Of a DNA stretch of 64,000 bases, positions 24,030 to 47,193 are shown in pieces; position 1 is the first letter of the stretch, and each line of letters starts with the position of its first letter. The translations under genes were made by a program, and so were the position numbers. The notes beneath the pieces are model-generated. The model was given only the letters and a program-made list of their open reading frames with translations. It had not been told where the DNA came from and ran no database searches. The DNA comes from Flavobacteriia bacterium (GTDB lineage Bacteria > Bacteroidota > Bacteroidia > Flavobacteriales_D > Crocinitomicaceae), in the NCBI GenBank assembly GCA_947462925.1, contig CANHQP010000006.1, forward strand, positions 1 through 64,000, written 5' to 3'.

Positions 24030-24665
24030 ATGGAACTTCAAAATATTCAAGAGTTCAAAGCAGCACCCTCAATAATCGATAAATTATTGGCAACGGGCTT
24101 AGAAAAATCTTTTTCCAATGGAGAAATTATTATCAATGAAAATGCAATAGTTAATTCTGTTCCAATTGTTAAAAGTGGTTGTATTAAAGTAATGAGAACT
24201 GATGAAGAGGGGAAAGAAATTTTACTCTATTATATCAAACCCGGTGATTGTTGCATCATGGGTTTTTTAGGAAGTTTGAATGACCAAATAAGTAGAATCA
24301 AAGCAACTGCGGAAGGTGACACTGATGTTTTATTTGTTCCTGTAACAACTGTGGCAATTTTAAATCGTGAGCATCCAGAATGGTTAGATTATATTTTTAG
24401 AGTTTATTATAAGTGTTACGATAATCTACTTGAAGTTGTCAATGCGATTGCTTTCAAAAAAATGGATGAAAGAATTTTAGCCTCAGTTCGTCAAAAGGTT
24501 GAAATGGCTCAAAATGACACGATTTTTATTACGCATGAACAACTGGCAGTTGAACTTGGTACTGCAAGAGTTGTTGTTTCAAGACTACTCAAACAAATGG
24601 AAGATGACGGTTTCGTGCAGTTAGGTAGAAATAAAATTAGGTTATTGGAGAAAGGAGTGATCTAA
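24030..24665 (+). CDS. Crp/Fnr-family transcriptional regulator (paralogue A)
   Basis: A 211-residue regulator with an N-terminal cyclic-nucleotide-binding-type beta roll (IIINENAIVNSVPIVKSG, KEILLYYIKPGDCCIMGF), a long dimer helix (EVVNAIAFKKMDERI) and a C-terminal winged helix-turn-helix (HEQLAVELGTARVVVSRLLKQM). It lacks the N-terminal Fe-S cysteine cluster of true Fnr and the arginine-phosphate cassette of Crp is not obvious, so the signal is unknown. It is closely similar along its length to the regulator at 46342-46962. Palindromes upstream suggest autoregulation. The YceI gene follows with its own promoter. Confidence 0.92.
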   Translation: MELQNIQEFKAAPSIIDKLLATGLEKSFSNGEIIINENAIVNSVPIVKSGCIKVMRTDEEGKEILLYYIKPGDCCIMGFLGSLNDQISRIKATAEGDTDVLFVPVTTVAILNREHPEWLDYIFRVYYKCYDNLLEVVNAIAFKKMDERILASVRQKVEMAQNDTIFITHEQLAVELGTARVVVSRLLKQMEDDGFVQLGRNKIRLLEKGVI

Positions 24666-36712: not shown

Positions 36713-39700
36713 TCAATCAACATATTCATTCCTCGCCAATCTGTCTTTGATTTCCTGAAGATTTTGTGCTTTTTTCTCGTTTCTTGCTGCTTTTGCTGTT
36801 TCTGTGAAATAGCGGTGACTTTCTAAAAAACCGACTTGTATTTCGTCCCACTTTCTATCGCTGTCAATTTTGCCGTGTTCGCGTAATTCAAGGCGTAATT
36901 TATCAGCAATTTTATGGAAATCGTCTCTTCCCAAGTAATCTAAATCCGCATCACAAATGATTTCTTCCAAATGATTTTGTGGATTGTGAGGAATTTGCGT
37001 TACATAAATCAATTCTCTGATTTGCTCGATGTGACTTTCAGAATATCCGAAGTTCGGCAAAATTTCTTCAGCCATGCGTGCTCCTACAGGTTCATTGTTC
37101 TCATAACTTTCAACAAATCCAGCATCGTGATACGTTGCTGCTGATTTCAATAAAAACAAGCCTTCATCAGTAATTCCTTCAGAAAGTGCCAATCTTTCAA
37201 TTGCATGACAAACATCTTTGGTATGTTCAACACAATGGTAGTGCAATTTTGGAGAAAGTTTCTTTTCCAAAATTTTCATGATGTGTTTTTCTGCCTTGTA
37301 ATAATTGATGCTACTGTAAAAGTGCAAGTTCATGATTTGTTTGAACTTTTCGTTTGGCACCAATCCTTTTCCGTCTATCGATAATTCAGGTTTGATTCCC
37401 TCAACGGAGTACATTTCCAGGTAGCCTTTGCTTTTAGACATGGCTTTTCCTCTGAAAACGCAAACAAAATAGGGTTCAATGTGTTTGAATGTATTTCCAG
37501 AAATATTTACTTTTCCAGGATCGCCCAACATTTCCATTCTTTGTGCCTGATTGACCGTTGAGCCCCAAATGTCATATTGCAATTTTTCAGAACCAATGAC
37601 TCCAGCTGTTACTTCGCCAGTATTGATTCCTAAACGTAAATCCCAAATAATTTGGTTGTTTTTTTCTGCTTCAAGTCTTAGCGTTTTAACATAATCTTGA
37701 ATTTGCAATGCAGCCACACAAGCATCAATTGGATTGGTAATATTCCGCACCGGAACACCGCCTGCACACATATAGGCGTCACCGATGGTTTTAATTTTTT
37801 CTAAATTGTTTTTGACAATGATATCATCAAATTTTCTGAAATAAATATCCAATTGATTTACTAGTTCTGAAGGTCTGATTTTTTCCGCAATTTTTGTAAA
37901 GCCAACAAAATCAGTAAACATCACAGAAACAGATTTGAAAGCCCTAGCTTGTGCTTTTCCTTTTAATTTTAACTCTTCGTAAGTTGATTCAGGAATAATA
38001 TTTTTAAGCAGTTTTTCAGTCTTTTCTTTTTCAATTTCTAACAATTGCTTTTGTTCCTCAAGCTTGTCTTTTTTCTCTTCAATCGTTCTTTTTTGCTTTT
38101 CAATTTTGACATTTTGCAATCTAATCTCTTTTGTTCTTTCAGCAATTTTCATTTCTAAACGAACTTGTTCTCTTCTTTCGTTGTCAATTTTTTTTCTGAT
38201 CAAAACAAAAATCGCAATACCGATAATTAAGATCATTAAGATCCAAAACCAAGCGGTTTGCCAGAATGGGGTTGCAATTACTATTTCAAGAGTTGCAGGT
38301 TCTTCGCTCCAATCTCCGTTACCAAGTCTTGCGTACACTTTTAAAACATAAGCACCAGGTTGGAGAGAATTAAAGTGAATTTGATTAAAATTTCCCATCA
38401 ATATTTCGCCCTCATCTGAACCTTCAAGTAAGTATTTATAAGATACTAATTCTGGATTACTTAAATCGACAGCCATGATTTTAAGCGTAAAACTGCGCTG
38501 TTTATAAGACAAATCGATATGAGAAGTATTCGAAATCGTGGTCGACAAAATTTTTGTTTCGTCATTTGGTTTGAGCCAGTTTGCATCTAATTTTATTTTA
38601 GTGAAACTCACTTCCATTTTTCGAGTGACATTATTGAGGGTATTTGGATCGAAATAATTGAAACCTGAAATTCCTCCAAAATACAATAAACCAGATTTCG
38701 AACGTAGAAAAGCTCCTTGGTTAAATTCATTGCTTAATAATCCATCGACTTCAGTGAAATTTGTCGCTTCATAATTGAAAATATTGAATTTAGAAATACC
38801 CTTATTTGTACTCAACCACAAGTTACCTTGGTTATCATTTAAAATTCCGTAAATTACATTGTTTGGCAAGCCATTTTTTTTGCTAAAGATCTTTCCTTTC
38901 TGATTTTTAACGTCCAAGCGAATGATGCCTGAACCCATGGTTCCTAGCCAAAATATATTTTTCGAACATTGATTGATGTGTGTGATATAATCTTTCGAAA
39001 GACCTGAAATGATTCCGTTTAATTTAGAAGGAACAATGGACAATTTATTTCCATCGATTTTCAATTCATTCAGTCCGCCAACGCTTGTAGTGAACCAAAT
39101 ATTCCCATTTAAATCTTTGTAGATCAAGCGGCAAACACCCGGAGCAATCGTTTCCTTTTTCTTTTTTGGATTGTGCTCGAAAACGGTAAAATCGTTTTTA
39201 CTTCTATCGTATAAAAGTACACCACCTTTTGTTGCTAAAAAATAGAGATTGTTTTTCCAATGCACGATATTATAGACTCTATCAAAATTTGATGGGTTTT
39301 TAATTTTATCGAATTTGATTTTCTCATACTTGAAATTATTTCCAACTATTTTGAGTGAAAATAGCCCGTCTGTTGCGCCAACTAACAAGTCGTTTTCCGA
39401 CAGGACATGAATGCTTAAAATCGAAGTTTCACCAACACTTCCTTGAGAGTTAAACTGTTTTTGTTTAAAGAATTGATCAAATTTTCCCGTTGAAATATTA
39501 AGTCTTGAAATGGCGTTATCTGTTCCGACGAATAGAAATTTTGTTTTTGGATCTTCCCCAAAACACCAAACACTTGGCGAAGGAATTCCTTTGGTCAAAT
39601 CACCACTTGCGCCGATGCTCAAAAAGCCCGCATTGATTGGATCAAAGCTGCCTAAACCACGATTTGTTCCCAACCAAAATGTTCCTTTTTTGTCTTTAAA

Positions 39701-40624
39701 AAGTACATTTAAATCATTGTCAAGCAAGCTGTTTTTTTGAAAAATATCATTGGTTGCTTGTGAAATGATTGGTTTTTCTGAGTTTAAATCAATCGAAAAA
39801 AGCCCTTGAGATTGCGAAGCGACGAAAAAATGATTGTCTGTTTCAATCTCAATGTCTGAAATATTTAACAGGCCATATGATTTATCTAAAACAGGAAGAA
39901 AAGCTGTCGCATTGGTCGAATGATTTTTCAATTGATAAAGTCCTTGGTTTGTGCCGATCATCCAAGAATAATTGTCCATGGCACGCATGGTATTTACCCG
40001 AACAAAACTTCCTTTTTTTCCAAAAATATAAATTGGAGTCGCTTGTTTCGTTTTGATATTTAGCGTAAAAAGACCTTGATCTTCAGTACTTACAAAAATG
40101 TGATTCAGATCTTTTTGAGCAACAAATTTTATTTTATTGGAAGGAAGATTTGATTTTAGGTGCTCAATTTTCTGGGTTTTTTTATTGAGTAAATACAATC
40201 CACTTGATGCACTTCCAAACCAAATATTTCCTTGATTGTCTTCAACTAAGCTTTCAATTTGCAATGCCACATTTCCCTTCAATTGAAAAGTTTTAAAAAC
40301 CTCTAAAAGCGGGTTGTAGCAGGTTAAACCATTGGCGGTACCAAACCACAATTTACCATCAGTTGCTTTGATAGACGAATGAATGTAGTCGTTTTCAAGT
40401 CCGTCGATTTTATCTGAAGTGAAATTTTCAAAATTTTGACCATCAAAACGATTCAAGCCATCTTGCGTTCCTATCCAAAGTGTTCCAACATTGTCTTGAA
40501 TAACAGTGGTTACAGCACTTTGTGATAAACCATCATTGATCGTATAATTTCTGAATCGATAATTATTTTGAGCAATAGCTTGGCAAAGACTGGCAATGAA
40601 TAATATGGCAATTAACTTTTTCAT
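36713..40624 (-). CDS. Reg_prop sensor with adenylate cyclase and HD domains
   Basis: A 1303-residue membrane protein. A signal peptide precedes a periplasmic two-component-regulator propeller (about 25-680; repeats such as GTLWIGTQDGLNRFD and GNIWFGSASSGLYLL) and a Y_Y_Y domain. One helix follows (FWILMILIIGIAIFVLI), then a coiled coil (about 815-890), a class III cyclase (FTDFVGFT at 903, KTIGDAYM, YDIWGSTVNQAQRM) and a C-terminal HD domain (His1130, HD at 1166-1167). The Lys and Asp specifying adenine are present, so the product is probably cAMP. The HD part may hydrolyse a nucleotide or signal. External ligand sensing is inferred from the hybrid-sensor-like front. Confidence 0.9.
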   Translation of the reverse strand: MKKLIAILFIASLCQAIAQNNYRFRNYTINDGLSQSAVTTVIQDNVGTLWIGTQDGLNRFDGQNFENFTSDKIDGLENDYIHSSIKATDGKLWFGTANGLTCYNPLLEVFKTFQLKGNVALQIESLVEDNQGNIWFGSASSGLYLLNKKTQKIEHLKSNLPSNKIKFVAQKDLNHIFVSTEDQGLFTLNIKTKQATPIYIFGKKGSFVRVNTMRAMDNYSWMIGTNQGLYQLKNHSTNATAFLPVLDKSYGLLNISDIEIETDNHFFVASQSQGLFSIDLNSEKPIISQATNDIFQKNSLLDNDLNVLFKDKKGTFWLGTNRGLGSFDPINAGFLSIGASGDLTKGIPSPSVWCFGEDPKTKFLFVGTDNAISRLNISTGKFDQFFKQKQFNSQGSVGETSILSIHVLSENDLLVGATDGLFSLKIVGNNFKYEKIKFDKIKNPSNFDRVYNIVHWKNNLYFLATKGGVLLYDRSKNDFTVFEHNPKKKKETIAPGVCRLIYKDLNGNIWFTTSVGGLNELKIDGNKLSIVPSKLNGIISGLSKDYITHINQCSKNIFWLGTMGSGIIRLDVKNQKGKIFSKKNGLPNNVIYGILNDNQGNLWLSTNKGISKFNIFNYEATNFTEVDGLLSNEFNQGAFLRSKSGLLYFGGISGFNYFDPNTLNNVTRKMEVSFTKIKLDANWLKPNDETKILSTTISNTSHIDLSYKQRSFTLKIMAVDLSNPELVSYKYLLEGSDEGEILMGNFNQIHFNSLQPGAYVLKVYARLGNGDWSEEPATLEIVIATPFWQTAWFWILMILIIGIAIFVLIRKKIDNERREQVRLEMKIAERTKEIRLQNVKIEKQKRTIEEKKDKLEEQKQLLEIEKEKTEKLLKNIIPESTYEELKLKGKAQARAFKSVSVMFTDFVGFTKIAEKIRPSELVNQLDIYFRKFDDIIVKNNLEKIKTIGDAYMCAGGVPVRNITNPIDACVAALQIQDYVKTLRLEAEKNNQIIWDLRLGINTGEVTAGVIGSEKLQYDIWGSTVNQAQRMEMLGDPGKVNISGNTFKHIEPYFVCVFRGKAMSKSKGYLEMYSVEGIKPELSIDGKGLVPNEKFKQIMNLHFYSSINYYKAEKHIMKILEKKLSPKLHYHCVEHTKDVCHAIERLALSEGITDEGLFLLKSAATYHDAGFVESYENNEPVGARMAEEILPNFGYSESHIEQIRELIYVTQIPHNPQNHLEEIICDADLDYLGRDDFHKIADKLRLELREHGKIDSDRKWDEIQVGFLESHRYFTETAKAARNEKKAQNLQEIKDRLARNEYVD

Positions 40625-46341: not shown

Positions 46342-46962
46342 TTACAATATTGTAATTTTATTCCGCTCCTGGGTAATCACGCCTTCATCGACCAATTGTT
46401 TTAACAATCGCGTGATTACTACGCGCACTGTGCCTAGTTCGTTGGCGATTTGTTCGTGGGTTACGTGCAAGGTATTGCTATTTGTCAATTTACATTTTTT
46501 ATTCAAAAAGTCCAGCAATCGTTCGTCCATTTTTTTGAAAGCAATGGCATTTACGACTTCCAATAATTCTTCGAATCGTTTGTGGTACAATCTGAAAATA
46601 TAATCCAACCATTCGGGAAATTCACGAATCATGGAACTTACTTTTTCAATCGGAATAAATAGAATTTCTGAATCTTCTTCTGCAACTGCTTTGATTTTGC
46701 TGGTATCTTGGTGCATTCCGCCTAAAAAAGACATGATGCAACTTTCTCCGGCGACGATGTAATACAATAAAATTTCTCTGCCGTCAGGTTCCGTTCTGAT
46801 TACGCGAATGCTTCCTTTGGTCACAATCGGAATGGCATTGATGTAGGCATTTTCGTTCAAAATTACATCTCCAGCCTTAAATTCTTTGGCGATTCCATTT
46901 TCGCTCAGTTTCTCAATGATTCGAGGCGATGATTTAAACTCAACAATTGTATCTAATTCCAT
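46342..46962 (-). CDS. Crp/Fnr-family transcriptional regulator (paralogue B)
   Basis: About 206 residues; the ATG chosen gives MELDTIVEFKSSPRIIEKL, aligning with the start of the paralogue at 24030. Effector domain: VILNENAYINAIPIVTKG, REILLYYIVAGESCIMSF. Dimer helix: EVVNAIAFKKMDERL. DNA-binding domain: HEQIANELGTVRVVITRLLKQL. No Fnr-type Fe-S cysteine cluster is present, so it is not an obvious O2 sensor. It lies directly upstream of the sulfur/redox operon on the same strand, and so is its most likely regulator. Confidence 0.93.
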   Translation of the reverse strand: MELDTIVEFKSSPRIIEKLSENGIAKEFKAGDVILNENAYINAIPIVTKGSIRVIRTEPDGREILLYYIVAGESCIMSFLGGMHQDTSKIKAVAEEDSEILFIPIEKVSSMIREFPEWLDYIFRLYHKRFEELLEVVNAIAFKKMDERLLDFLNKKCKLTNSNTLHVTHEQIANELGTVRVVITRLLKQLVDEGVITQERNKITIL

Positions 46963-46986
46963 AGCGTTAAAGATAAGTAATGTTTC

Positions 46987-46999
46987 TGTTAGTGTAACA
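46987..46999. promoter_or_regulatory. palindrome TGTTAGTGTAACA upstream of paralogue B
   Basis: Five-base inverted arms (TGTTA/TAACA) around GTG, centred about 31 bp upstream of the start codon. It shares GTGTAACAA with the two palindromes upstream of the paralogue at 24030. It is a candidate autoregulatory site. Confidence 0.4.
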
Positions 47000-47193
47000 A
47001 TTTTGAGTTTCTTCAATTATTAAATCGAAAGAAAATACATGAAATAATTTAATTTTTAGAATCGTTCTATTTAGTTGATATTTCAGAATTCCAAACGTTT
47101 TTTCATTACTTTTAACGCCAGTTAGTTTGTGCTAAAAACCCCACAAACTATTCATTAAACACTTAGGTCATGTTAGGTTTAAACGCTTTTTGG

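Follow-up and report, generated by a model that had tools for sequence, protein, structure and literature searches.

Does a single protein of a Flavobacteriia bacterium both make and destroy a cyclic nucleotide? The question is raised by a gene in the stretch analyzed here, the first 64,000 nucleotides of contig CANHQP010000006.1 (assembly GCA_947462925.1, Crocinitomicaceae; hereafter the window). The gene lies at 36713..40624 on the minus strand and encodes, from an ATG start, a 1303-aa protein composed of a Reg_prop sensor front, a Y_Y_Y domain, a transmembrane (TM) helix, a coiled coil, a class III cyclase and an HD domain. To our knowledge, the making, reading and destruction of cyclic AMP (cAMP) in Bacteroidota are poorly known. 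An earlier note on this DNA had proposed this order of domains, apart from the TM helix, with synthesis and possible hydrolysis of a nucleotide signal on one chain. The order is borne out by Pfam, by a long helix in an AlphaFold2 (AF2) model and by the HD motif residues. The prediction of two opposed activities gains support from the phosphodiesterase (PDE)-like fold and residues of the HD domain, from the fusion and adjacency of this domain to cyclases and from its fusion to PycTM. The sequence and model evidence leads us to favor, with some reservation, a bifunctional cAMP synthase/phosphodiesterase under the control of a periplasmic signal.

The cyclase and the HD domain

The cyclase domain (aa 893-1075; 37400..37948, minus strand, as for all features of the gene) matches PF00211 above the Pfam cut-off (E 3e-44). 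It contains D905, K945, D949, D1018, N1025 and R1029. We equate these with the residues that bind metal, specify adenine and act in the transition state in class III adenylyl cyclases of mammals and mycobacteria; an alignment with AC9 agrees. The adenine-specifying Lys and Asp that the earlier note had pointed out are K945 and D1018 in this alignment, and the metal residues D905 and D949, whose absence the note had said would refute its proposal, are both present. The complete D-K-D-D-N-R set is found in 72 of 81 HD-fused cyclases, and the domain is predicted to make cAMP from ATP. Pycsar systems, in which a dedicated PycC cyclase is found with an effector, use cCMP or cUMP as the product, and PycTM is an effector domain of this cyclic-pyrimidine signaling. 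We rejected the window protein as a Pycsar member: its matches to PycC profiles are distant and run through the cyclase domain (E 3e-11), its residues are of the adenylate type, and it contains no PycTM.

No part of the protein is better conserved than the HD domain (aa ~1100-1303; 36716..37327), where conservation means are 0.76-0.82 over aa 1101-1250. Taken alone, the window sequence of this domain passed no model's cut-off in Pfam or NCBIfam and gave only chance matches in a single-sequence search of the PDB, where a profile was needed to obtain matches. Its relatives match PF01966 HD (E 1e-6 to 8e-8), for which the window sequence itself remains below the cut-off. In an alignment of 52 diverse relatives, H1130, H1134, H1166, D1167, E1178, D1225 and D1227 are invariant, and the H...HD...D metal site of the HD superfamily is present as H1134, H1166-D1167 and D1227.

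The AF2 model of the domain (204 aa) is compact, with a predicted local distance difference test score of 96. When the model is compared with the PDB using VIA-align, class I PDEs such as PDE10A and PDE7A align over 192-197 of the 204 residues with Z-scores of 16.9-18.0, well over the level at which the tool warns for helical bundles, and a root-mean-square deviation (rmsd) of ~2.5-3.3. All of the 50 best rows are class I PDEs, a count inflated by the very many PDE entries in the PDB. As modeled, the domain would therefore have the fold of a class I PDE catalytic domain (Z 17-18, 194 residues aligned, rmsd 2.7-2.8).

The comparison with cyclic-nucleotide PDEs that the earlier note had recommended also points to PDE-like residues. 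Using hhalign, the HD profile gives a short match to PDE4D alone (probability 35%), which rises to 85%, with E 6.5e-6 for one comparison, after PDE5A and PDE9A are added; the PDE sequences in this profile were checked against the PDB. One local alignment pairs YHN..H, HD, CADL and QVGF of the HD domain with YHC..H, HD, DADL and QVGF of the PDEs. In the profile-based alignment the key residues of the domain (H1130/H1134, H1166/D1167, D1227, Q1263 and F1266, all encoded within 36716..37327) fall on catalytic and purine-pocket residues of PDE4D/5A/9A. PMC5617230 names the active-site residues of class I PDEs: eight in the metal pocket, the Gln that scans the purine, and the clamp residues. Five of the eight metal-pocket positions are matched in the HD domain, as are the Gln and the clamp Phe, with Q1263 and F1266 opposite QVGF; the Glu/His pair of the metal pocket is represented at most by E1178.

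Spread and company of the HD family

A whole-protein search found the complete architecture in 33 of the 36 genomes of the same family (Crocinitomicaceae-like), either full length or truncated where a contig ends. Two other genomes have only the TM/coiled coil-cyclase-HD part, and the remaining one (59% completeness) has none. Elsewhere in the order at least 8 of 23 genomes carry the architecture, which supplies the genome count that the earlier note had suggested. The Reg_prop-cyclase-HD gene is ancient; its named loci belong to Crocinitomicaceae/Fluviicola-like Flavobacteriales, and cyclase-HD proteins are also found in Bacteroidales, Marinilabiliales and others. A Reg_prop front on a cyclase that lacks the HD domain is common (Treponema saccharophilum NZ_AP025289, L139, L154-L156, L168), and the added HD domain is the only special part of the architecture. 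The window's genome encodes exactly two class III cyclases, each ending in this HD domain. The second is a 576-aa REC-cyclase-HD protein (L002 1144-2871; G000:C23), in which the same output module is under two-component control.

More widely, the HD family is present in 142 of 389 good Bacteroidota genomes, as stand-alone proteins (~200 aa), cyclase-HD, HD-PycTM (PF18967), HD-YitT and probable TIR-TPR-HD proteins. The cyclase-HD proteins have Reg_prop, REC, GAF and other fronts, and one of 1866 aa ends in GAF-cyclase-HD. A class III cyclase gene immediately precedes the stand-alone HD gene in L112 (Taibaiella), L113 (where the cyclase has a Reg_prop front), L158 (Rufibacter) and L170. In L172, L175, L178, L180, L184, L186 and L188 the two lie near each other; most of these neighbors were checked with Pfam for being cyclases. 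HD-PycTM fusions match PF18967 at E 1e-28 to 1e-35. Fusions of this kind occur in many Bacteroidota (L063 850-2127, L075 841-2208, L076 874-2148, L077 1432-2694, L210-L225 and L227-L229), and in L208 (6977-8186) a separate PycTM gene overlaps the end of the HD gene. Fusion and adjacency thus tie the HD family to cyclic mononucleotides. In HD-PycTM proteins the HD domain might serve as an off-switch that the PycTM protein carries itself. A third kind of partner is a YitT/DUF2179 membrane protein, fused to the HD domain in L052 (1420-2937) and L061 (610-2115). Two long proteins, L078 375-2963 (863 aa) and L079 202-2841 (880 aa), have a TIR-like N-terminal domain, a FlgO/TPR region and a C-terminal HD domain; a PADLOC search gave no match for the L078 protein.

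The residue at the position of Q1263 follows the company that the HD domain keeps. Of the cyclase-fused HD domains, 79 of 81 have Gln (one is unreadable because of masked sequence), as do 10 of 12 cyclase-adjacent ones (one row is a fragment of a fused gene, again with masked sequence); none of the 20 PycTM-fused domains does, and these have Asn, Ser, Thr, Gly or Asp. Among stand-alone HD genes, a cyclase lies within 7 kb for 8 of 15 of the Gln type versus 1 of 25 of the non-Gln type (Fisher p 6e-4, kinship ignored). On a tree of 133 HD domains, Gln needs three changes and marks one deep clade that contains all cyclase fusions (Shimodaira-Hasegawa-like approximate likelihood ratio test support 99). 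This property of the clade is suggestive of a different base specificity. A broader and distinctly more tentative proposal is that the family is a Bacteroidota-wide compact counterpart of class I PDEs that erases cyclic mononucleotides. Its Gln branch would be fused to adenylate cyclases or encoded next to them, with control by periplasmic signals, two-component systems or other means. In its Asn/Ser/Thr branch, fused to PycTM membrane effectors, the domain would switch off signaling by another cyclic nucleotide, perhaps a pyrimidine one.

Competing readings

Several observations weigh against a cAMP phosphodiesterase. The HDxxH motif of class I PDEs is not found in the window protein, which reads HDAGF at this position, and the PROSITE signature PS00126 is absent from the window protein and in 0 of 152 HD domains of the family. 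A profile search ranks the solved HD proteins 2pq7 (E 1.5e-7), YedJ (1.1e-6) and BH2835 nearest, ahead of the PDEs. The top Foldseek matches of the model are 2pq7, YpgQ (which is a nucleotide pyrophosphatase) and PDE4D, and PDE4D ranks no higher than the other two. Because H-x3-H, HD and DAD are common to the 2pq7/YedJ/YpgQ family, only the C-terminal half of the domain (ATxxP, QxxF) speaks for a PDE in particular. The Gln pattern amounts to roughly one event rather than many independent observations, since it reflects one deep split with three changes. No canonical cAMP receptor was recognized in the genome (92% complete). Finally, synthesis and hydrolysis on one chain would be wasteful of ATP unless they were oppositely regulated.

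PF00233 itself matches neither the window protein nor the HD piece, and it is above cut-off in none of 296 Bacteroidota genomes; at least three of the five sub-threshold matches are genes of this same HD family. Because the domain shares five of the eight metal-pocket positions, the Gln and the Phe with class I PDEs but lacks HDxxH, we regard it as PDE-like and not as a member of PF00233.

The strongest competitor takes up the rankings by profile and by Foldseek, together with the missing HDxxH. The cyclase would make cAMP, and the HD domain would be a YpgQ/YedJ-type nucleotide pyrophosphatase or phosphohydrolase whose substrate is not cAMP; it might, for example, clear nucleotides that contain pyrophosphate, or a signal of another kind. 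We consider this unlikely, although it deserves to be taken seriously. VIA-align places class I PDEs first across the whole HD domain, the QxxF purine pocket aligns with that of the PDEs, and the HD family is linked to two cyclic-nucleotide modules, cyclases and PycTM. We know of no link between the YpgQ/YedJ/2pq7 hydrolases and cyclases.

The fate of the two domains in distant relatives bears on a second alternative. Among the 81 cyclase-HD proteins, seven from a Bacteroidales clade have lost metal ligands of the HD domain and retain an intact cyclase, and most of these seven HD domains still have the Gln. Six others have changed catalytic residues in the cyclase (D905N/E, D1018E, N1025H) and an intact HD domain, and none of the 81 shows decay of both. 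This reciprocal pattern fits two separable, opposing activities, with small numbers. The degenerate loci are L116, L120 and L134, which are pairs of cyclase-HD genes, and L123, L127, L132, L133, L109, L114, L117, L125, L126 and L143; a dead-looking HD domain and a changed cyclase are sometimes found in such neighboring genes. The copies without metal ligands must have some non-catalytic role, and they are what one would cite for an HD domain that serves as a non-catalytic or feedback sensor, binding cAMP or AMP and regulating the attached cyclase. For the window protein we find this improbable, because its metal ligands, like those of its family orthologs, are all invariant, which is more than selection for binding alone requires. 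Hydrolysis of ppGpp or c-di-GMP, which would couple cAMP synthesis to another alarmone and for which the HD superfamily does offer precedents, is very improbable: the comparison with ppGpp hydrolases raised in the earlier note found the Rel/SpoT HDxxED motif in none of the 152 relatives, the window domain has no HD-GYP signature, and the compact fold fits PDEs.

Sensor, mechanism and known systems

The N-terminal part of the protein resembles periplasmic sensors. A signal peptide-like sequence, MKKLIAILFIASLCQAIA (aa 1-18; 40571..40624), is predicted to precede the Reg_prop propellers (aa ~20-700; 38525..40567), where PF07494 matches in five stretches (E 3e-25). Along its length the sensor front aligns with solved structures of the periplasmic portions of hybrid two-component sensors, namely 4a2l (E 2e-78) and 3v9f (E 6e-62). 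The Y_Y_Y domain follows (PF07495, E 1.5e-12; aa 722-783; 38276..38461), then a single TM helix recognized as a hydropathy peak (aa 790-811; 38192..38257) and a coiled coil or signaling helix (aa ~815-880; 37985..38182) that is one long helix in the AF2 model and has a weak HNOBA match at 837-881. The propeller, which the earlier note had called extracellular, should be described as periplasmic because Bacteroidota are Gram-negative. Neighbors of the window gene are kept only within the genus (an ArsC-like gene and kynA in 3-5 of 39 loci), so that its context is uninformative.

For the bifunctional enzyme that we favor, the following mechanism can be envisaged. A ligand would bind to the propellers, as homology suggests, and would change the packing of the Y_Y_Y/TM/coiled-coil stalk in a dimer, by analogy with hybrid two-component sensors and membrane cyclases. 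The altered stalk would switch the homodimeric class III cyclase, whose residues predict production of cAMP from ATP. The C-terminal HD domain could then convert cAMP to 5'-AMP through its class I PDE-like two-metal site and Gln/Phe purine pocket. With the two activities opposed on one chain, resting cAMP might stay low and rise in brief local pulses, or the ligand might set the balance between synthesis and hydrolysis.

The window also encodes two Crp/Fnr-type regulators, similar to each other, at 24030-24665 and 46342-47016. The earlier note had suggested that they could use the product and had seen no obvious cAMP cassette in either; by eye, both indeed lack the R-[STA]-A phosphate cassette, and for this reason they were rejected as evidence of cAMP reading. 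Nor is the cassette seen by eye in the four remaining cNMP_binding domains that the genome encodes.

If this reading is correct, the protein would be a one-component cAMP switch in Bacteroidota, and an HD family so far without an assigned function would gain a role. It would also offer a minimal 200-residue PDE for comparison with human drug-target PDEs. The HD-PycTM fusions suggest that many PycTM proteins may have a nucleotide eraser of their own, a point relevant to how Pycsar-type effectors are silenced, and the Gln versus Asn/Ser/Thr split puts base specificity within reach of a direct test. The literature searched contained no description of a bacterial cyclase-HD fusion of this kind or of HD-PycTM function, which is weak evidence of novelty given its thin coverage of subscription papers.

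Each part of the protein has known counterparts. Hybrid two-component systems such as 4a2l and 3v9f have the same periplasmic double propeller, Y_Y_Y domain, single TM helix and signaling helix, but their output is a kinase, receiver and DNA-binding domain rather than a cyclase-HD module. Reg_prop-class III cyclases such as those of T. saccharophilum, L139 and L154 share the sensor-to-cyclase layout and lack the HD domain. Class I PDEs (PDE4D, PDE10A, PDE7A; PF00233) resemble the HD domain in fold over nearly its whole length and share the Gln and Phe; however, they comprise ~320 aa, whereas the HD domain has ~200 aa, lacks HDxxH and PS00126 and falls below the PF00233 cut-off. The YpgQ/YedJ/2pq7 hydrolases have H-x3-H, HD and DAD in common with it and provide its best single-structure sequence match.

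Bifunctional GGDEF-EAL and Rel/SpoT enzymes embody the same principle, a synthase and a hydrolase of one messenger on a sensor-controlled chain, and the reciprocal decay of cyclase-HD proteins resembles that of degenerate GGDEF-EAL proteins. Their messengers are different and their catalytic domains unrelated, the HD domain of Rel sharing only the superfamily. The closest analog is CAPE (combined adenylyl cyclase with PDE), a protein of streptophytes, liverworts among them, in which a single chain carries an adenylyl cyclase and a class I PDE (PMC5159850, PMC8115329). Both CAPE and, by prediction, the window protein join a class III adenylyl cyclase to an HD-superfamily cyclic-nucleotide PDE on one membrane-associated chain. 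CAPE is eukaryotic and has no Reg_prop sensor; its N-terminal part is a complete class I PDE, separated from the cyclase by two TM helices. In the window protein both active sites are present in silico, the domain order differs, and the short HD domain lies at the C-terminus and does not belong to PF00233. Because the layouts differ, independent fusion is suggested. The combined cyclase/PDE principle is therefore already known from plants, and what is new here is the likeness of the HD domain to class I PDEs.

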